Origin: an uncultured Flavobacteriales bacterium
GTDB lineage: Bacteria; Bacteroidota; Bacteroidia; Palsa-965
Direction of reading: 5' to 3'
Length of the DNA stretch: 63,900 nt
Assembly: GCA_903873905.1 (NCBI GenBank)
Contig: CAIQQJ010000178.1
Coordinates: 1-63,900 of the forward strand
This document shows positions 39,058 through 45,809 of the stretch, piece after piece. Made by a program: the position numbers and the translations under genes. Position 1 is the first letter of the stretch, and every line of letters starts with the position of its first letter. The notes under the pieces were generated by a model, which was not told where the DNA came from, made no database searches, and saw only the letters and a program-made list of their open reading frames with translations.

Positions 39058-39300
39058 ATGAAGCTTAAAAAAAACATTGCTACAAGCGAATCGGGATTCA
39101 TCTTTAATCCTGCAACTGGAGATTCCTATTCAGCAAATCCAGTTGGATCCGACATCATTCTTCTGATGAAGGACAATAAATCCATTGCCGAGATCAAAAA
39201 AAACATCACGTCTAAATATGATGTGGACGATTCGCAGTTTGATAAAGACTACGATGATCTGTTGGCTCAATTGCGCGACAATAATCTGCTCGAGCATTAA
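39058..39300 (+). CDS. PqqD-like peptide-recognition protein
   Basis: An 80-residue protein with the PqqD fold pattern: MKLKKNIATSESGFIFNPATG, then GSDIILLMKDNKSIAEIKKN (winged-helix helices) and a C-terminal helix DDLLAQLRDNNLLEH. PqqD proteins and the related lasso-peptide B1 proteins are RiPP recognition elements that hold the leader of a precursor peptide for modifying enzymes. I choose the ATG at 39058; a longer start adds 15 residues without match. It is the first gene of a six-gene operon; the next gene starts 17 bases later. No separate precursor peptide gene is visible, which makes the leader-like tail of the third gene interesting. Confidence 0.85.
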   Translation: MKLKKNIATSESGFIFNPATGDSYSANPVGSDIILLMKDNKSIAEIKKNITSKYDVDDSQFDKDYDDLLAQLRDNNLLEH

Positions 39301-39317: not shown

Positions 39318-40385
39318 ATGAAGGACAAAAATAAAAAAGGTGATCGTCCGCGGTATACCGTGGCTGTCACAGGACTAAACGCTATTGATTCCCCTGGGCC
39401 TGGAATGGCCGTGATTCGTGCTGTGCGTGAAGCAAAAGATTATGATGTTCGCATCATTGGACTTTCTTACGAAGCACTGGAACCCGGAATTTACTTGCAC
39501 GATTGGGTGGATAAAACTTATCAGATTCCATATCCAGCAGCAGGAAGTGAATCCTTGTTCGCACGTTTGGAATATATTAATGACATTGAAAAGATTGACG
39601 TGCTCATTCCTAATTTCGATGCGGAGCTTCATAATTTCATTCGTCTTGGAGAGAAATTACGGAAAATTGGAATTGCAACATTTCTTCCAGCAATGGATCA
39701 ATTCGAAGCGCGTGATAAAGTGAATCTTTACGCATTCGGACAGAAACACGGTTTGCTTGTTCCTGCAGATCGAATCATTTATAAAGTAGAAGATCTTGCA
39801 GGAACGGCGAAAGATTTCGGTTGGCCAATTGTGGTGAAAGGGAAATTTTATGAAGCTGTCGTTGCACAAACGCTCGAGCAAGCACAAAAAGCATTTCACA
39901 AATTGCACGCGAAGTGGGGGCTTCCAATTATTGTTCAACAATTTATTTCTGGAAGTGAAATGAACATCGCTGTGCTTGGTGATGGAAAAGGAAATACGAT
40001 TTCTGCAATTCCCATGCGAAAATTATATATCACTGATAAAGGAAAAGCGTGGGCGGGAATTACAGTTGAAGACAATGCGCTGATCGATCTCGCGAAGAAA
40101 TTCATTACAGCAACCAAATGGCGAGGTGGATTGGAAATTGAAATCATGCTTTCTGTTGATGGAAAACCTTACATCATGGAAGTCAATCCAAGATTTCCTG
40201 CGTGGATTTATTTGACAGCAGGAGCAGGACAAAATCAGCCCGCTGCATTGGTTAAGATGGCACTTGGTGAAACGGTTGAGCCTTACACAACTTATGATGT
40301 TGGGAAAATGTTCATCCGTTACGCATGGGATCATATTGTGAACATTGAAGAATTTCAAAAAATTTCCGCATTCGGAGAATTATAA
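39318..40385 (+). CDS. ATP-grasp ligase
   Basis: A 355-residue ATP-grasp enzyme of the carbamoyl-phosphate-synthase-large/biotin-carboxylase relation. A pre-ATP-grasp Rossmann-like N-domain (YTVAVTGLNAIDSPGPG) leads into the grasp: lysine in WPIVVKGKFY, VQQFISGSEMNI for ATP contact, and metal ligands LEIEIML and MEVNPRFPAW. It should form an amide, peptide or thioester bond using ATP, with a carboxylate and a nucleophile. No amidotransferase or carboxylase companion exists here. Operon place between the PqqD-like gene and a LysA-like PLP enzyme recalls the butirosin pair BtrJ (ATP-grasp) and BtrK (decarboxylase). The substrate is unknown. Confidence 0.88.
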   Translation: MKDKNKKGDRPRYTVAVTGLNAIDSPGPGMAVIRAVREAKDYDVRIIGLSYEALEPGIYLHDWVDKTYQIPYPAAGSESLFARLEYINDIEKIDVLIPNFDAELHNFIRLGEKLRKIGIATFLPAMDQFEARDKVNLYAFGQKHGLLVPADRIIYKVEDLAGTAKDFGWPIVVKGKFYEAVVAQTLEQAQKAFHKLHAKWGLPIIVQQFISGSEMNIAVLGDGKGNTISAIPMRKLYITDKGKAWAGITVEDNALIDLAKKFITATKWRGGLEIEIMLSVDGKPYIMEVNPRFPAWIYLTAGAGQNQPAALVKMALGETVEPYTTYDVGKMFIRYAWDHIVNIEEFQKISAFGEL

Positions 40386-40406: not shown

Positions 40407-41768
40407 ATGGCAAAGCTTAAATACGAACGTCCTGTCATCAAAAAATTGAATGCAGGATTAATGAATAAATTCGGAACACGCACGGAATTCGAACCTGTAA
40501 AACATATTGACGGTGTGGCTGTGAAATCACTCATTGAAAAATATGGCTCTCCTGTTTTTGTTATTTCAGAAAGACAAATGCGGAGAAATTACCAGAATGC
40601 AGTTCGTTCTTTCAAGACACGTTATCCGAAAGTGCAATTCGCATGGTCTTACAAAACAAATTACATCAATGCAGTTTGTAATGTATTTCACCAAGAAGGA
40701 TCATGGGGAGAAGTGGTTTCTGGTTTTGAATACAACAAGGCTTTGCGCAATGGTGTTCCCGGAAATAAAATTATTTTCAACGGACCCGATAAATCAGAAC
40801 AGGATTTGCGTGATGCAATAAAAAATGATTCGCTCATTCATATTGATCACTTTGATGAATTGTATTCACTGATCAGTTTGTGTGAAACGATCAATGCAAA
40901 ACCAAGAGTTGCCATTCGTGTGAATATGGACACCGGTATTTATCCAATGTGGGATCGTTTTGGTTTCAATTATGAGAATGGTTCAGCGTGGAATGCTATT
41001 CAGAAAATTATTGGCTCTGGAAAATTGAGATTGGTTGGATTGCATTCACACATTGGTACTTTCATGCTTGCACCTTCTGCCTATTCAGTTGCAGCATCCA
41101 AACTTTGCGATCTCATGTGGCATTGCAAGAATCAACACAATTTGCAATTGCAGTACATTGACCTTGGCGGTGGATTCCCTTCTCAAAATACTTTGAAAGG
41201 TTCTTATTTGCCAGGCACAGATACCGTTCCTTCCATTGATGAATTTGCAGAAGCTATTACAACAACAATTCTGAATTTTGGATTCAAAACTGAAGAATTG
41301 CCTTTGTTGATTTTGGAAACAGGTCGCGCACTTATTGATGATGCAGGATATCTACTTGGTTCTGTCCTTGCAAATAAACGTTTGGCTGATGGACGTCGCG
41401 CAACGATAATGGATTTTGGTGTGAACATCATGTTCACTTCGTTTTGGTACGATCACAAAATAAGTCCTGCACAAGATTTCACACATCACACCGAGGATCA
41501 AGTTGTTTACGGACCACTTTGTATGAACATTGATTGCATTCGAGAAAGTGTGAGTTTGCCTTTGCTCAATCGTGGCGATCATGTTGTGGTACACAAAGTA
41601 GGCGCTTACAACATGACACAGTGGATGCAATTTATTGCCATGCGTCCAAATGTGGTAATGATTGACATGGAACAAACACCACATCTCATTCGTCGTGCTG
41701 AAAAATTGGATGATATTGTTTCATTGGAAGAAATGCCGGCGTATTTGAAAAAGATTGATTTAAAGTAA
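40407..41768 (+). CDS. LysA-like PLP-dependent decarboxylase with leader-like N-terminal tail
   Basis: 453 residues, fold-type III (alanine racemase barrel plus C-terminal beta domain). PLP lysine in FAWSYKTNYI (Lys83), HSHIGT for the ring, GGGFP phosphate loop, LETGRALIDDAG (E-x-GR in place of EPGR), GPLCMNIDC with the catalytic cysteine, and VGAYNM with the tyrosine. These are features of diaminopimelate and related D/L-amino-acid decarboxylases. Residues 1-30 precede the usual start and include KLKYERPVIKKLNAGLMNK: Tyr6-x2-Pro9-x4-Leu14-x2-Gly17, like the leader motif bound by PqqD-type domains. It is in an operon far from dapB, so a role in standard lysine synthesis is less likely. Confidence 0.88.
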   Translation: MAKLKYERPVIKKLNAGLMNKFGTRTEFEPVKHIDGVAVKSLIEKYGSPVFVISERQMRRNYQNAVRSFKTRYPKVQFAWSYKTNYINAVCNVFHQEGSWGEVVSGFEYNKALRNGVPGNKIIFNGPDKSEQDLRDAIKNDSLIHIDHFDELYSLISLCETINAKPRVAIRVNMDTGIYPMWDRFGFNYENGSAWNAIQKIIGSGKLRLVGLHSHIGTFMLAPSAYSVAASKLCDLMWHCKNQHNLQLQYIDLGGGFPSQNTLKGSYLPGTDTVPSIDEFAEAITTTILNFGFKTEELPLLILETGRALIDDAGYLLGSVLANKRLADGRRATIMDFGVNIMFTSFWYDHKISPAQDFTHHTEDQVVYGPLCMNIDCIRESVSLPLLNRGDHVVVHKVGAYNMTQWMQFIAMRPNVVMIDMEQTPHLIRRAEKLDDIVSLEEMPAYLKKIDLK

Positions 41769-41791: not shown

Positions 41792-43957
41792 ATGAATTTT
41801 CTTCAAATAAAATCTTGGCCCAATGCCATTCTTCGAACTTATGCGATTGTTCTTTTTTCGCAGAAGAAATGGCTTGGCGTCTTGCTTTTATTCGTTTCCT
41901 TCTTGAATCCTGTTGCTGGAATGTGTGGGATTATTTCGGTGTGTGCTGCAATTCTCATTGCTGAAGTCACACATTTAAATCAAGCTGGAATTCATAGTGG
42001 ACTTTACAGCTTCAATGCGTTGATGGTGGGCGTTGGAATGGGGACTTTTTATGAAACGGGTTTTGCATTTTATATTGTTCTCTTCACTGCCGTTTTATTG
42101 AGTGTAATACTTTCATCAATTTTAGCTGCCTGGTTTGGAAAATACGGATTACCATTTCTTTCCCTTCCATTTGTATTTACGTTTTGGTTGGTATTGCTTG
42201 CTACGAAAGAGTTTTCATACATTGGTTTGAGTCAACGAAATGTTTATTGGCTCAATGAAATGTATGCAGCAGGAGGACAACCATTAGTTTCCTTTTTTAC
42301 ATGGATTGAGAATTTACCAATGCCAGATGTTGTTGGGTATTATTTCCGTGCATTGAGCGCATTGTTTTTTCAGAGCAATGTTTTGGGTGGAATGATTATT
42401 TGCGTGGGACTATTATTTTTTTCCAGAATACATTTCACCTTATCCATTCTCGGATTTGTTTGTGCATATGGTTTCAATTATCTCACAGGAGGATATGCAT
42501 CTGGAATAAATTATTACAATCTCGGAAGTAATTATATGATGGTTGCATTGGCAATAGGAGGTTTCTTTTCCATTCCATCCAACGCTTCGTATTTATGGGC
42601 GGTATGGAGCATTCCATTAACATCATTGCTCGTAATTGGACTTGGGAAAATATTTGGTGTCTTGTTATTGCCAACTTTTTCTCTCCCAATGTGCCTTATC
42701 GTTATAGCATTCATCTTCTTTATGAAGCAGCGAATGTTTGAGGGAAAATTGAAATTAGCACACATTCAACATTATTCTCCGGAAGTGAATCGTTATCTTT
42801 TTCTTAATGGACAAGAACGTTGGAAGGATTTATATTATTTCCATTTATTTCCTCCTTTCCTAGGAGAATGGGCTGTAACGCAAGGTTATGATGGCAGCAT
42901 CACACACAAAGGTGATTGGAGCAAAGCATTGGATTTTTCAGTGTTAGATGAGGAAATGAAAACTTATTCAGGAGCCGGAGTTCATTGTGAGGATTTTTAT
43001 TGCTTCAATAAACCTGTTCTCGCTCCATGCGATGGAATTGTGGAAGAAATCATTGACAATGTGGATGATAATGCCATTGGTGAAGTGAATACAAAAGAGA
43101 ATTGGGGAAATACAATTGTGATACGTCATTGGACAGGATTGTATACAAAGATGTCGCATTTGAGGAAGAATTCTTTTCGAGTGAAAAAAGGAGATTTTAT
43201 TCACCGTGGTGATATTGTTGCATTGTGTGGAAATTCCGGTCGTTCTCCTGAACCGCATTTGCATTTTCAAGTTCAATCTTTTCCACACGTAGGTTCGAGC
43301 ACAATTGAATATCCGCTTGCCTATTATGTTGTGCGAGAACACAAAAAAATAATTCCTGAGAATTTTTCTATTCCTAAGGAAGGCCAACTCATTAGCAGTG
43401 TTGAAATAAATTCTTCAATGAGTGATGCATTCCGATTTCAGCCTGGATTCAAAACAACATTCCGCATTTCTGAAAATGGAATTGACACGGAAGAAACTTG
43501 GGAAGTCTTTACAGATGCATGGAATCATACGTACATCTGGTCGAAAGAAAAAAAATCTACAGGATATTTTGTGAATAATGGAACGGTGTTTTATTTCACA
43601 GGATTTTATGGCGACAAAAGTTCTTTGTTGTATACTTTTTATCTCTCCTGTTATCGTGTTATGCTCTCGATTATGAATGGGGTTTCGATTAAAGACAGTT
43701 TCCCTTTGCATTTGCTTGGTAATAGTCCAAGGATGTGGTTACAGGATTTTGTTTGTCCATTTTTCATATTTATGAAACAGGAATTTTCAATCCATGCAGA
43801 GGAGCGAGGTGATTCGATGGATTTTGGAAATGTGGTTCTTCATTCGCAGATGAAAGGAAATATCGGAAAAGCGCAAATGGATGGAGAGGTTTTGGTTGTG
43901 AATGGAAAGATTGAGAAAATTATGGCAGGAAGTAAGGAGGCGGTATGCGTGGCTTAA
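41792..43957 (+). CDS. Urea-transporter domain fused to M23 (LytM) peptidase
   Basis: 721 residues in two modules. Residues ~1-315 are an integral membrane urea-channel fold: GLYSFNALMVGVGMG near 70-84, the duplicated UT signature GLPFLSLPFVFTFW (119-132) and LLPTFSLPMCL (292-302), with about ten membrane segments. After a linker, residues ~365-500 are a LytM/M23 endopeptidase: zinc ligands His372 and Asp381 (HKGDWSKALDF), APCDGIVEEI, WGNTIVIRHW, YTKMSHLRKNSFRVKKGD, and PHLHFQV with His489 and His491. Residues ~500-721 are a further beta-rich domain without known motif. The active site appears complete. This join of a small-amide channel with a wall hydrolase is unusual. It overlaps the next gene by 13 bases. 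Confidence 0.9.
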   Translation: MNFLQIKSWPNAILRTYAIVLFSQKKWLGVLLLFVSFLNPVAGMCGIISVCAAILIAEVTHLNQAGIHSGLYSFNALMVGVGMGTFYETGFAFYIVLFTAVLLSVILSSILAAWFGKYGLPFLSLPFVFTFWLVLLATKEFSYIGLSQRNVYWLNEMYAAGGQPLVSFFTWIENLPMPDVVGYYFRALSALFFQSNVLGGMIICVGLLFFSRIHFTLSILGFVCAYGFNYLTGGYASGINYYNLGSNYMMVALAIGGFFSIPSNASYLWAVWSIPLTSLLVIGLGKIFGVLLLPTFSLPMCLIVIAFIFFMKQRMFEGKLKLAHIQHYSPEVNRYLFLNGQERWKDLYYFHLFPPFLGEWAVTQGYDGSITHKGDWSKALDFSVLDEEMKTYSGAGVHCEDFYCFNKPVLAPCDGIVEEIIDNVDDNAIGEVNTKENWGNTIVIRHWTGLYTKMSHLRKNSFRVKKGDFIHRGDIVALCGNSGRSPEPHLHFQVQSFPHVGSSTIEYPLAYYVVREHKKIIPENFSIPKEGQLISSVEINSSMSDAFRFQPGFKTTFRISENGIDTEETWEVFTDAWNHTYIWSKEKKSTGYFVNNGTVFYFTGFYGDKSSLLYTFYLSCYRVMLSIMNGVSIKDSFPLHLLGNSPRMWLQDFVCPFFIFMKQEFSIHAEERGDSMDFGNVVLHSQMKGNIGKAQMDGEVLVVNGKIEKIMAGSKEAVCVA

Positions 43958-45192
43958 GAAACATTATTTTCATTTTAATTTTCAGTGTTGGAAAATTATC
44001 CGCACAGCAATTAACTTTCCCATATGTTGATAGTGCAACCTATGCAATGTATTTGAAGGGTGATTACAATGAATTGATAAAACTTGGCAGTAAAGCCATT
44101 AAGCAGGGAATAGATTATCCCTTACTTCGTGTGCGAATGGCAGAAGCCGCAGAATTGAATAATGATTTTTCAACTGCGGAGAAAATTTATCGAGGAATTG
44201 TTATTACTGATACAACAAATGCCAATGCGCATTATCAAGTTGCTCAGAATAATATTTTTCTAAACCGTTATGATATTGCGGAATATTATGCGCCAACTTT
44301 AAATGTTGTGCAACGGAAAAATCTCGGGTTGAAAAAACATGCGCTGATTGAATCTGTAAATTTTGAGGCAGGATTGAAACACCCAGGAGACACTTCTCGT
44401 GGAAATGCTTATTTCGGAAGTGTTGGTATTTCCTCTCGACTTTTTTACCGATGGACTTTGTACCAATCTATTACGCCATATGGTCAAACGGTAACGGACA
44501 GCGATACGACATCTTCATTTCCTTTTCATCCAGCGCATATTGGGCAAATAAATTATTATGCAAAATTACACGGACAAATTTTCCCACATTTGGGAGTGAC
44601 GGCTGCATTTTATCATTTTTCTTTACGTGAAAAAGTTACGGATTGGATTCCTCCGCAGCAAAATGGACCGCACATGGGACCTCCGACACCACCGCCAACA
44701 ATCACTCAAAATGGATTTTATTTTGTTGGAGGGCTGCGTTGGAATTTGCCGAAGTTAGAGTTGCATGGAGAATATGTTGTTGGTCAAATGAATAGTTCCT
44801 CCTTCTCGCAAATGGGAGTGTCATTCATGTATTTGCCCTTTGGAAATTTGTATTCTTACGTAAGAGGTGAATGTTATTATCAACTTCCAACAAATTCTGG
44901 AAACGGTAATTTGGTTTTCATTCCAACTCTTGGTTTCAAGTTGCAGAAGAAAGTTTGGTTTGAAGCCACAGCGACATTTGGAACATTCAATAATCTTGCC
45001 CAGAATGAAGGAGCCTATTTTTTCAATATGTATGATGCAACAAAATTGCGTTACGGAGGCACCTTATTCCTTCTTGCAGGAAAGAAAAGCATTTTTACAT
45101 TGAATTATTTGCAGGAAACAAAATTAATCTCGAATACCAATTCAACTTATCAACAACCATCAATAACCTTTGGACTACAATGGAAACTATGA
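43945..45192 (+). CDS. TPR plus outer-membrane beta-barrel protein
   Basis: 415 residues. Signal peptide (MRGLRNIIFILIFSVGKLSA), then TPR-like helices (about 25-125: YLKGDYNELIKLGSKAIKQG, LNNDFSTAEKIYRGIV), then a C-terminal barrel with alternating aromatic strands (YRWTLYQSITPYG, YSYVRGECYYQLP, SITFGLQWKL). This is the plan of YaiO-like exporter/outer-membrane proteins in polysaccharide export. A Pro/Gly-rich loop (PPQQNGPHMGPPTPPPT) lies between strands. It should sit in the outer membrane and could give the operon product a way out. Starts inside the end of the preceding gene; stop overlaps the next start (ATGA). Confidence 0.8.
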   Translation: MRGLRNIIFILIFSVGKLSAQQLTFPYVDSATYAMYLKGDYNELIKLGSKAIKQGIDYPLLRVRMAEAAELNNDFSTAEKIYRGIVITDTTNANAHYQVAQNNIFLNRYDIAEYYAPTLNVVQRKNLGLKKHALIESVNFEAGLKHPGDTSRGNAYFGSVGISSRLFYRWTLYQSITPYGQTVTDSDTTSSFPFHPAHIGQINYYAKLHGQIFPHLGVTAAFYHFSLREKVTDWIPPQQNGPHMGPPTPPPTITQNGFYFVGGLRWNLPKLELHGEYVVGQMNSSSFSQMGVSFMYLPFGNLYSYVRGECYYQLPTNSGNGNLVFIPTLGFKLQKKVWFEATATFGTFNNLAQNEGAYFFNMYDATKLRYGGTLFLLAGKKSIFTLNYLQETKLISNTNSTYQQPSITFGLQWKL

Positions 45193-45809
45193 AAAAAATA
45201 ATTGTCGCACTCATGTTGTGCGTTATTACAACCGCTCAGGCGCAAACGACCACCACACAAACTGATTTGCAAACGGCTTTCAAATACAGTTATGCCTGCG
45301 AAGCTGCAGGGAATTACACGGATGCAATTGGATATCTCACCAAGGTTTATGATGAGAAAAGTTATGAAATCAATCTTCGCCTGGGATGGTTGAATTACGC
45401 AACGAAGAATTGCCCAACTTCAATTTCCTATTACCAAAAAGCAATTGACTTGCGCCCTTACGGAATTGAAGCGCGGCTGGGTTATGTGAAACCGGCTTCT
45501 GCATTGGAAAAATGGGATGATGTTCTTGCACAATACGAAGCCATTCTGAAAATCGATCCGCAAAATTCAACCGTGAATTATTATACTGGAATGATTTATT
45601 ATAATAGAAAGGATTATTTAAAGGCTGCAGGTTATTTTGAAAAAGTGGTAAATCTTTATCCCTTCGATTACAATTCATCCTTAATGTTGGGCTGGTGCGA
45701 TGTGTTCTTGGGAAAAATGAGCGATGCTAAAATCCTTTTCCAAAAAGTATTGCTTTACAGTCCAAGTGATGCTTCTGCATTGGATGGATTGAAAAGAGTA
45801 GGTCAATAG
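45189..45809 (+). CDS. Secreted TPR protein
   Basis: A 206-residue periplasmic protein from the ATG at 45189, which overlaps the previous stop (ATGA); an in-frame ATG three codons upstream is also possible. Signal peptide MKKIIVALMLCVITTAQA, then about five TPR units (YACEAAGNYTDAIGYLTKV, NYYTGMIYYNRKDYLKAAGYF, LMLGWCDVFLGKMSDAKILF). Likely a periplasmic partner of the barrel protein encoded just upstream. It is the last gene of the operon; a strong bidirectional terminator follows. Confidence 0.85.
   Translation: MKKIIVALMLCVITTAQAQTTTTQTDLQTAFKYSYACEAAGNYTDAIGYLTKVYDEKSYEINLRLGWLNYATKNCPTSISYYQKAIDLRPYGIEARLGYVKPASALEKWDDVLAQYEAILKIDPQNSTVNYYTGMIYYNRKDYLKAAGYFEKVVNLYPFDYNSSLMLGWCDVFLGKMSDAKILFQKVLLYSPSDASALDGLKRVGQ

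Follow-up and report, generated by a model that had tools for sequence, protein, structure and literature searches.

A leader-like N-terminal tail on a fold-III PLP decarboxylase as the likely partner of a PqqD-like RiPP recognition element in Bacteroidota

The canonical ligand motif of discrete RiPP recognition elements (RREs) is [Y/W]xxPx[L/V/I/F/A], and in LppB the residue D70 hydrogen-bonds the Tyr of the leader, while N33 holds the kink that the leader makes at its Pro; assembly of the LPP complex is weakened by D70A and nearly abolished by N33A (PMC13381572). RREs serve the discovery of RiPP clusters. Many PqqD-like proteins of the discrete kind are encoded where the partner genes that one would expect are missing, and RRE-Finder treats such matches to its discrete lasso model as either possible false positives or members of uncharacterised classes (PMC7470986). 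Among the decarboxylases that function outside lysine and polyamine synthesis, FigC, SbnH, AcsE, MccE and BtrK all use conjugated amino acids, and BtrK decarboxylates glutamate carried on the carrier protein BtrI (PMC7857480).

The window analysed here, which is the whole stretch of 63,900 nt from an uncultured Flavobacteriales bacterium (Bacteroidota; GCA_903873905.1, contig CAIQQJ010000178.1, positions 1-63,900), contains a cassette in which the gene of a PqqD-like RRE is followed by those of an ATP-grasp ligase, the decarboxylase, a urea-transporter/M23 fusion, a barrel-like protein and a TPR protein (Table 1). The median gaps among the first four genes are -4, 43 and 28 bases. In most loci the fusion gene accompanies the cassette, and because a homologue of the barrel-like protein (52 of 54 loci) and one of the TPR protein (54 of 54) are conserved 3' of it, the cassette seems to function as a unit of six genes rather than four. 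The ATP-grasp motif E288-x-N-P-R is intact in 112/112 rows, and the M23 residues H372, D381 and H456 are present in 68/68 fusion rows, H489 and H491 in 67/68. The joining of a channel, the urea-transporter domain, to a peptidoglycan peptidase (41792-43957) is an odd pairing. Two further variations of the layout were observed. A gene for a GNAT-like acetyltransferase, assigned as GNAT by reading the sequence, lies just upstream of PqqD in about 22 loci (e.g. L007, 4327-4512), and in two loci (L032, 2423-3453; L082, 3435-4477) an insert of about 1 kb between PqqD and ATP-grasp encodes a protein of secreted type, about 270 residues long, whose C-terminal region resembles a T9SS sorting tail.

Table 1. 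Features of the cassette in the window, with positions counted from the first nucleotide of the window.
Feature	Position	Strand	Evidence
PqqD-like RiPP recognition element, discrete, 80 aa	39058..39300	+	PF05402 45.4 bits; model pLDDT 89; TM 0.86 to TbiB1 with leader
PqqD Asn27, counterpart of LppB N33	39136..39138	+	Asn in 129/129 readable rows, one gap
PqqD Asp64, counterpart of LppB D70	39247..39249	+	residue pairing with tail residue 6
ATP-grasp ligase	39318..40385	+	PF15632, PF02655; E288-x-N-P-R motif
Fold-III PLP decarboxylase; the closest relative of solved structure is N-citrylornithine decarboxylase FigC/FslC	40407..41768	+	
Decarboxylase N-terminal tail, residues 1-27, not part of the LysA/FigC fold	40407..40487	+	PDB alignments
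Leader-like motif Y6-E-R-P9-V-I11 (YxxPxI)	40422..40439	+	[YF]xxPx[ILV] in 122/122 distinct tails
K21-F22-G23, invariant Lys, fixed spacing after the motif	40467..40475	+	K21 in 130/130
Urea-transporter-like membrane domain and M23 peptidase, fused	41792..43957	+	PF03253, PF01551
Cassette-linked protein, read as outer-membrane beta-barrel type (inference)	43945..45192	+	no Pfam hit
Cassette-linked TPR protein	45180..45809	+	TPR matches

The PqqD-like protein exceeds the gathering cut-off of PF05402 (45.4 against 23.4 bits), and its model, with a mean pLDDT of 89, shows the winged-helix type of fold known from leader-bound B1 proteins and reaches TM scores of 0.86 to TbiB1 with its leader (5v1u) and 0.78 to 6jx3. 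The best matches of its profile are two discrete lasso RREs, TbiB1 (E 1.5e-10) and TfuB1 (E 8e-6). Asn27 and Asp64, which are 37 positions apart like N33 and D70 of LppB, belong to the best-conserved residues of the protein. By its Pfam family, its fold and its recognition residues, it is an RRE of the leader-binding type, although binding data are not available. The curated cut-offs of the lasso PqqD models are not reached (NF033530, 31.1 against 70; NF033536, 25.3 against 80). Neither a lasso B2 protease nor a C cyclase was found among the scanned proteins of the cassette and its neighbourhood, nor was an acyl-carrier domain found in the scanned cassette proteins.

For the decarboxylase, the best match in the PDB is FigC with 251 bits. 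Its assignment as the housekeeping LysA was rejected, as it remains below the cut-off of the LysA equivalog TIGR01048 (213.6 against 297.9 bits), which the genome's own, separate LysA (L002) passes with 364.6 bits. The cut-off of the FslC model NF041039 is also not reached (205.5 against 500). In one genome (G501; L170, L172) two reading frames each encode only part of the decarboxylase, representing either a pseudogene or a sequence error.

The open reading frame of the decarboxylase begins with MAKLKYERPVIKKLNAGLMNKFGTRTEFEPV, and the enzyme itself with MAKLKYERPVIKKLNAGLMNKFGTRTEFEPVKHIDG. In all 23 distinct PDB relatives (E <= 1e-20) the alignment begins at residue 28 or later, so that about 27 residues are additional to the LysA fold. 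A sequence-only reading of this DNA had described a leader-like tail of 30 residues ahead of the fold, with Tyr6, Pro9, Leu14 and Gly17 forming a motif of the YxxP...L...G type. The four residues are found at exactly these positions and the extra residues are real, but the PDB alignments shorten the tail to about 27 residues, and the resemblance to leaders needs to be corrected in one respect: YxxP is present, but the hydrophobic residue that matches the canonical [Y/W]xxPx[L/V/I/F/A] is Ile11, not Leu14. This form is satisfied by the window tail with YERPVI, and position 11 is I, L or V in 130/130 rows. Leu14 and Gly17 were dropped as motif residues, since Ile11 sits at the canonical place and position 14, occupied by Met or Leu in homologues close to the window, varies freely in more distant ones. 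In a monomer model of the decarboxylase the tail has a pLDDT of about 35. This proves nothing and was not accepted as a sign of disorder, because there are six stretches below 50 in total, several of them conserved, in a model built on a shallow alignment.

We consider it probable, though by no means certain, that the PqqD-like RRE binds this tail and so joins decarboxylase and ATP-grasp ligase, that a conjugate is then decarboxylated, and that the product is handled at the envelope. The docking of the tail by the PqqD-like protein is, as a separate point, supported by conservation, homology and co-variation, while binding has been neither measured nor modelled. Instead of a separate precursor peptide, the RRE would have as its ligand the tail at the N-terminus of the neighbouring decarboxylase. 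It is inferred that this tail would lie on the RRE as an added strand, its Tyr6, Pro9 and Ile11 placed in the cleft, where Asp64 would hold the hydroxyl of Tyr6 and Asn27 the kink at Pro9; these last two contacts are supported, not measured. That the RRE would tie the decarboxylase to the ligase is deduced from gene order and from the known role of RREs, and a contact between RRE and ligase has not been demonstrated. The ligase would join an amino acid to a partner that remains unspecified, and the decarboxylase, which appears FigC/BtrK-like rather than a true LysA, would remove a carboxylate from the resulting conjugate, a substrate inferred from the action of FigC, SbnH, AcsE, MccE and BtrK on conjugated amino acids. 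On weaker grounds, namely the downstream membrane and envelope proteins and the near-invariant M23 residues, the product may meet the cell envelope and be handled there by the urea-transporter/M23 fusion and the downstream envelope proteins.

The first line of evidence is the conservation of the tail. The pattern [YF]xxPx[ILV], followed after nine residues by K-x-[GA], is kept in all 122 distinct tails, down to about 45% whole-protein identity, with Tyr at position 6 in 104 of them and Phe in the remaining 18. Pro9 and Lys21 are each present in 130/130 rows, and in a diverse set of 20 decarboxylases theirs are the only invariant columns. Across 83 close relatives Tyr6, Glu7, Pro9, Gly17, Asn20, Lys21 and Gly23 are invariant, and the mean entropy of residues 6-27 is 0.62 as opposed to 0.79 for the whole protein. 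The bare motif is not rare, as [YFW]xxPx[LVIFA] occurs within the first 30 residues of 25 of 540 background ORFs and the form restricted to Y/W in nine; it is therefore the conservation of the motif together with K-x-[GA] at fixed spacing, and not the motif alone, that makes the tail more than chance. Because of this conservation, a wrongly chosen start codon was also rejected as the origin of the tail. The sequence-only reading had named a lack of conservation among operon-borne homologues as a finding that would refute it, and with 122/122 distinct proteins keeping the tail this refutation did not occur; its proposal that the tail could dock the enzyme to the PqqD-like protein is, on the whole, supported. 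The genome's own LysA has no such tail, and three distant relatives without it (L146, L154, L155) come from genomes in none of which a cassette-type PqqD is present.

The invariance of Lys21 is also the basis of the alternative that survives best, which we regard as unlikely but which is neither excluded nor shown. Here, leader and core would be placed on one enzyme: the RRE binds the tail and the ATP-grasp ligase modifies it, likeliest at Lys21, so that the tail acts as an amino-acid carrier. The enzyme would be its own RiPP-like precursor, with YxxPxI as leader and Lys21 as a core of one residue, loaded by the ATP-grasp enzyme and with the cargo processed by the enzyme itself. Lys21 follows the motif at a constant distance, has variable neighbours and lies outside the region common to the solved relatives; RREs normally present the following core to a modifying enzyme, and BtrK acts on glutamate held by BtrI (PMC7857480). 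However, an invariant residue can also be structural, no modification has been seen, and the ligase is nearest to small-molecule ATP-grasps (2pn1), not to graspetide ligases. If this alternative were true, the cassette would contain a self-carrying enzyme in which RRE-guided loading replaces an acyl-carrier protein.

The preferred reading, in which the RRE docks the decarboxylase through its tail, is further supported by the distribution of the two genes. With cut-offs of E <= 1e-40 for the decarboxylase and E <= 1e-10 for the cassette PqqD, the decarboxylase was found in 27 of 296 Bacteroidota genomes, about one in 11 of those sampled, and the cassette-type PqqD in exactly those 27; the next PqqD matches in the 296 genomes had E-values of 1e-7 or weaker. 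Within the same order, 3 of 12 genomes contain the cassette, and this patchy spread suggests loss or transfer. Cultured carriers exist in Mucilaginibacter and Pedobacter (loci L016 and L084). In the loci from the collection of named genomes, PqqD, ATP-grasp and decarboxylase occur together in 71/80. Among the nine loci without an adjacent PqqD, five are at contig edges (L013, L039, L064, L079, L080), two contain a run of N (L028, L059), and two have the PqqD elsewhere in the genome (L033, L037). A search of the L028 genome found no PqqD, which is consistent with the N run but is not proof. In the genomes of L033 and L037 the three genes are spread over different contigs and the tail is unchanged, so the tail tracks whether a genome has PqqD and not a position in an operon. 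The supposition that the tail is kept only where the PqqD gene is adjacent thus holds in a modified form: the tail follows PqqD in the genome, but adjacency is not needed. In two further loci, L148 and L228, no PqqD was seen in the locus stretch examined, which for L228 is all that was searched; for L148, which bears the tail, none was found in its genome, which is 60% complete.

The second line of evidence concerns tail residue 6 and PqqD residue 64. Their joint change was set as a test before the data were looked at: Tyr6 loses its hydroxyl when it becomes Phe, so that Asp64 is expected to be free to change, and this change was seen. Of 120 paired loci, 115 pairs were kept after the removal of identical copies and short rows (Tyr-Asp 97, Tyr-Asn 1, Phe-Tyr 15, Phe-His 1, Phe-Phe 1), and 15 of 30 new loci, the rest being repeats or without PqqD, raised the number to 130 (Tyr-Asp 100, Tyr-Asn 1, Phe-Tyr 27, Phe-His 1, Phe-Phe 1). 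Tyr6 is thus found with Asp or Asn64 in 101/101 and Phe6 with Tyr, His or Phe64 in 29/29 pairs, and there is no Phe-Asp or Tyr-Tyr pair among the 130. A total of 885 columns from decarboxylase, PqqD and ATP-grasp were compared in the 112 rows whose ATP-grasp match was long. PqqD64 came out as the best partner of tail residue 6 (0.686), and besides residue 6 itself only tail position 19 and PqqD64 separated the Phe and Tyr rows completely, with 0/355 ATP-grasp columns doing so. In the mutual-information ranking of 113 pairs, from which L090 and L170 were left out, APC correction puts position pair 20-64 at rank 1 and pair 6-64 at rank 2 among 35,392. Pair 6-64 is only 4118th by plain mutual information, because fast-changing columns score higher there, and 11th by MI/H, after nine pairs of near-invariant columns with PqqD72 and pair 20-64.

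The weight of this result is limited by the phylogeny. The Phe6 rows form one clade, with the Tyr-Asn row (L168) nested beside the Phe-His row (SH-aLRT 89 to 93). Residue 6 shows two changes on the best tree and one independent pair on well-supported branches, as determined in part on 62 of the 115 pairs. As Phe6 is essentially one clade, a sign test is powerless, and the second co-change depends on the single row L168, Tyr with Asn, at an SH-aLRT of about 90. The co-variation therefore amounts to one, perhaps two, coordinated events and is not statistical proof. The second-ranked partner of tail residue 6 is ATP-grasp residue 293 (0.657; approximately 40194-40196 in the window); this column could lie on a ligase surface turned towards the docked tail, or it could reflect nothing but clade history, and it shows that clade history can mimic a co-variation signal.

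Conserved long N-terminal arms occur in enzymes, and the tail might accordingly be an ordinary structural arm, a dimer contact or a lid of the active site, whose likeness to the RRE motif is coincidental. K21-F-G23 beside the fold could pack on a partner subunit, and the frequency of the motif alone in background ORFs (25/540) leaves room for coincidence. What makes us doubt this explanation even more than that of a modified Lys21 is the exact YxxPx[ILV] register, the co-occurrence with PqqD in 27/27 genomes, the location of the best partner of residue 6 in PqqD, and the existence of LysA and tailless relatives that do without the arm.

The searches for a separate precursor are in line with the decarboxylase tail as the ligand of the RRE. 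The remark in the sequence-only reading that no other precursor gene is visible in the operon was borne out: the gaps are small, and no conserved short precursor gene near the cassette was found among the most widely shared short ORFs listed (best 15 and best 20), which are pieces of the TPR or acetyltransferase genes. A precursor hidden in the intergenic gaps was likewise rejected; two loci, L032 and L082, carry the insert of about 1 kb, which encodes the secreted-type protein and not a precursor. A profile of the tail alone gave 25 strong matches in 24 genomes, all of them decarboxylases (two in G138); no other tail-bearing protein was found in these genomes, the next match having an E-value of 0.12. 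That PqqD serves an unlinked, fast-changing precursor peptide, with the enzyme tail as a mimic or regulator, is the least credible explanation and can largely be set aside, for although peptides are the normal ligands of RREs and a precursor of different sequence elsewhere would escape the tail profile, the 24 genomes yielded no second tail-like protein, a conserved short ORF was not seen near the cassette, and where the genes have become unlinked it is the decarboxylase that has been kept along with PqqD.

The recognition of leaders by RREs is already well known, but an RRE with the tail of a metabolic enzyme as its evident partner, in a cassette that has no visible precursor, was not found in the open-licence papers searched. 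A description of the cassette was not found there either, and subscription papers may mention it. If the partner of an RRE can be an enzyme tail, part of the orphan RREs would become explainable and could be searched for via YxxP tails on neighbouring enzymes, and leader recognition would, if the reading is true, be a docking code between pathway enzymes.

Compared with the discrete RREs of lasso and LPP systems (TbiB1, TfuB1/FusB1, LppB), the PqqD-like protein has the same fold, Pfam family and recognition Asn and Asp, and the ligand motif YxxPx[L/I/V] is shared as well; the difference is that the motif is here located on an enzyme of 453 residues, in a cassette that stays under the NCBIfam lasso cut-offs and in which no precursor and no lasso protease or cyclase was found. 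Graspetide clusters have in common with it an ATP-grasp ligase combined with leader-type recognition, whereas in this cassette no precursor was found and the ligase is nearest to small-molecule ligases resembling carbamoyl-phosphate synthase. With the FigC/FslC-BtrK group of fold-III enzymes, the window decarboxylase shares the GPxCM and VGAYN stretches in the FigC alignment, but it has about 27 extra N-terminal residues and falls far under the cut-off of the FslC model. The butirosin side-chain module, in which BtrJ is the loading ligase, likewise combines an ATP-grasp enzyme and a fold-III decarboxylase with a small partner protein (BtrI/BtrJ/BtrK); the small protein of butirosin is an acyl-carrier protein, whereas that of the cassette is an RRE.
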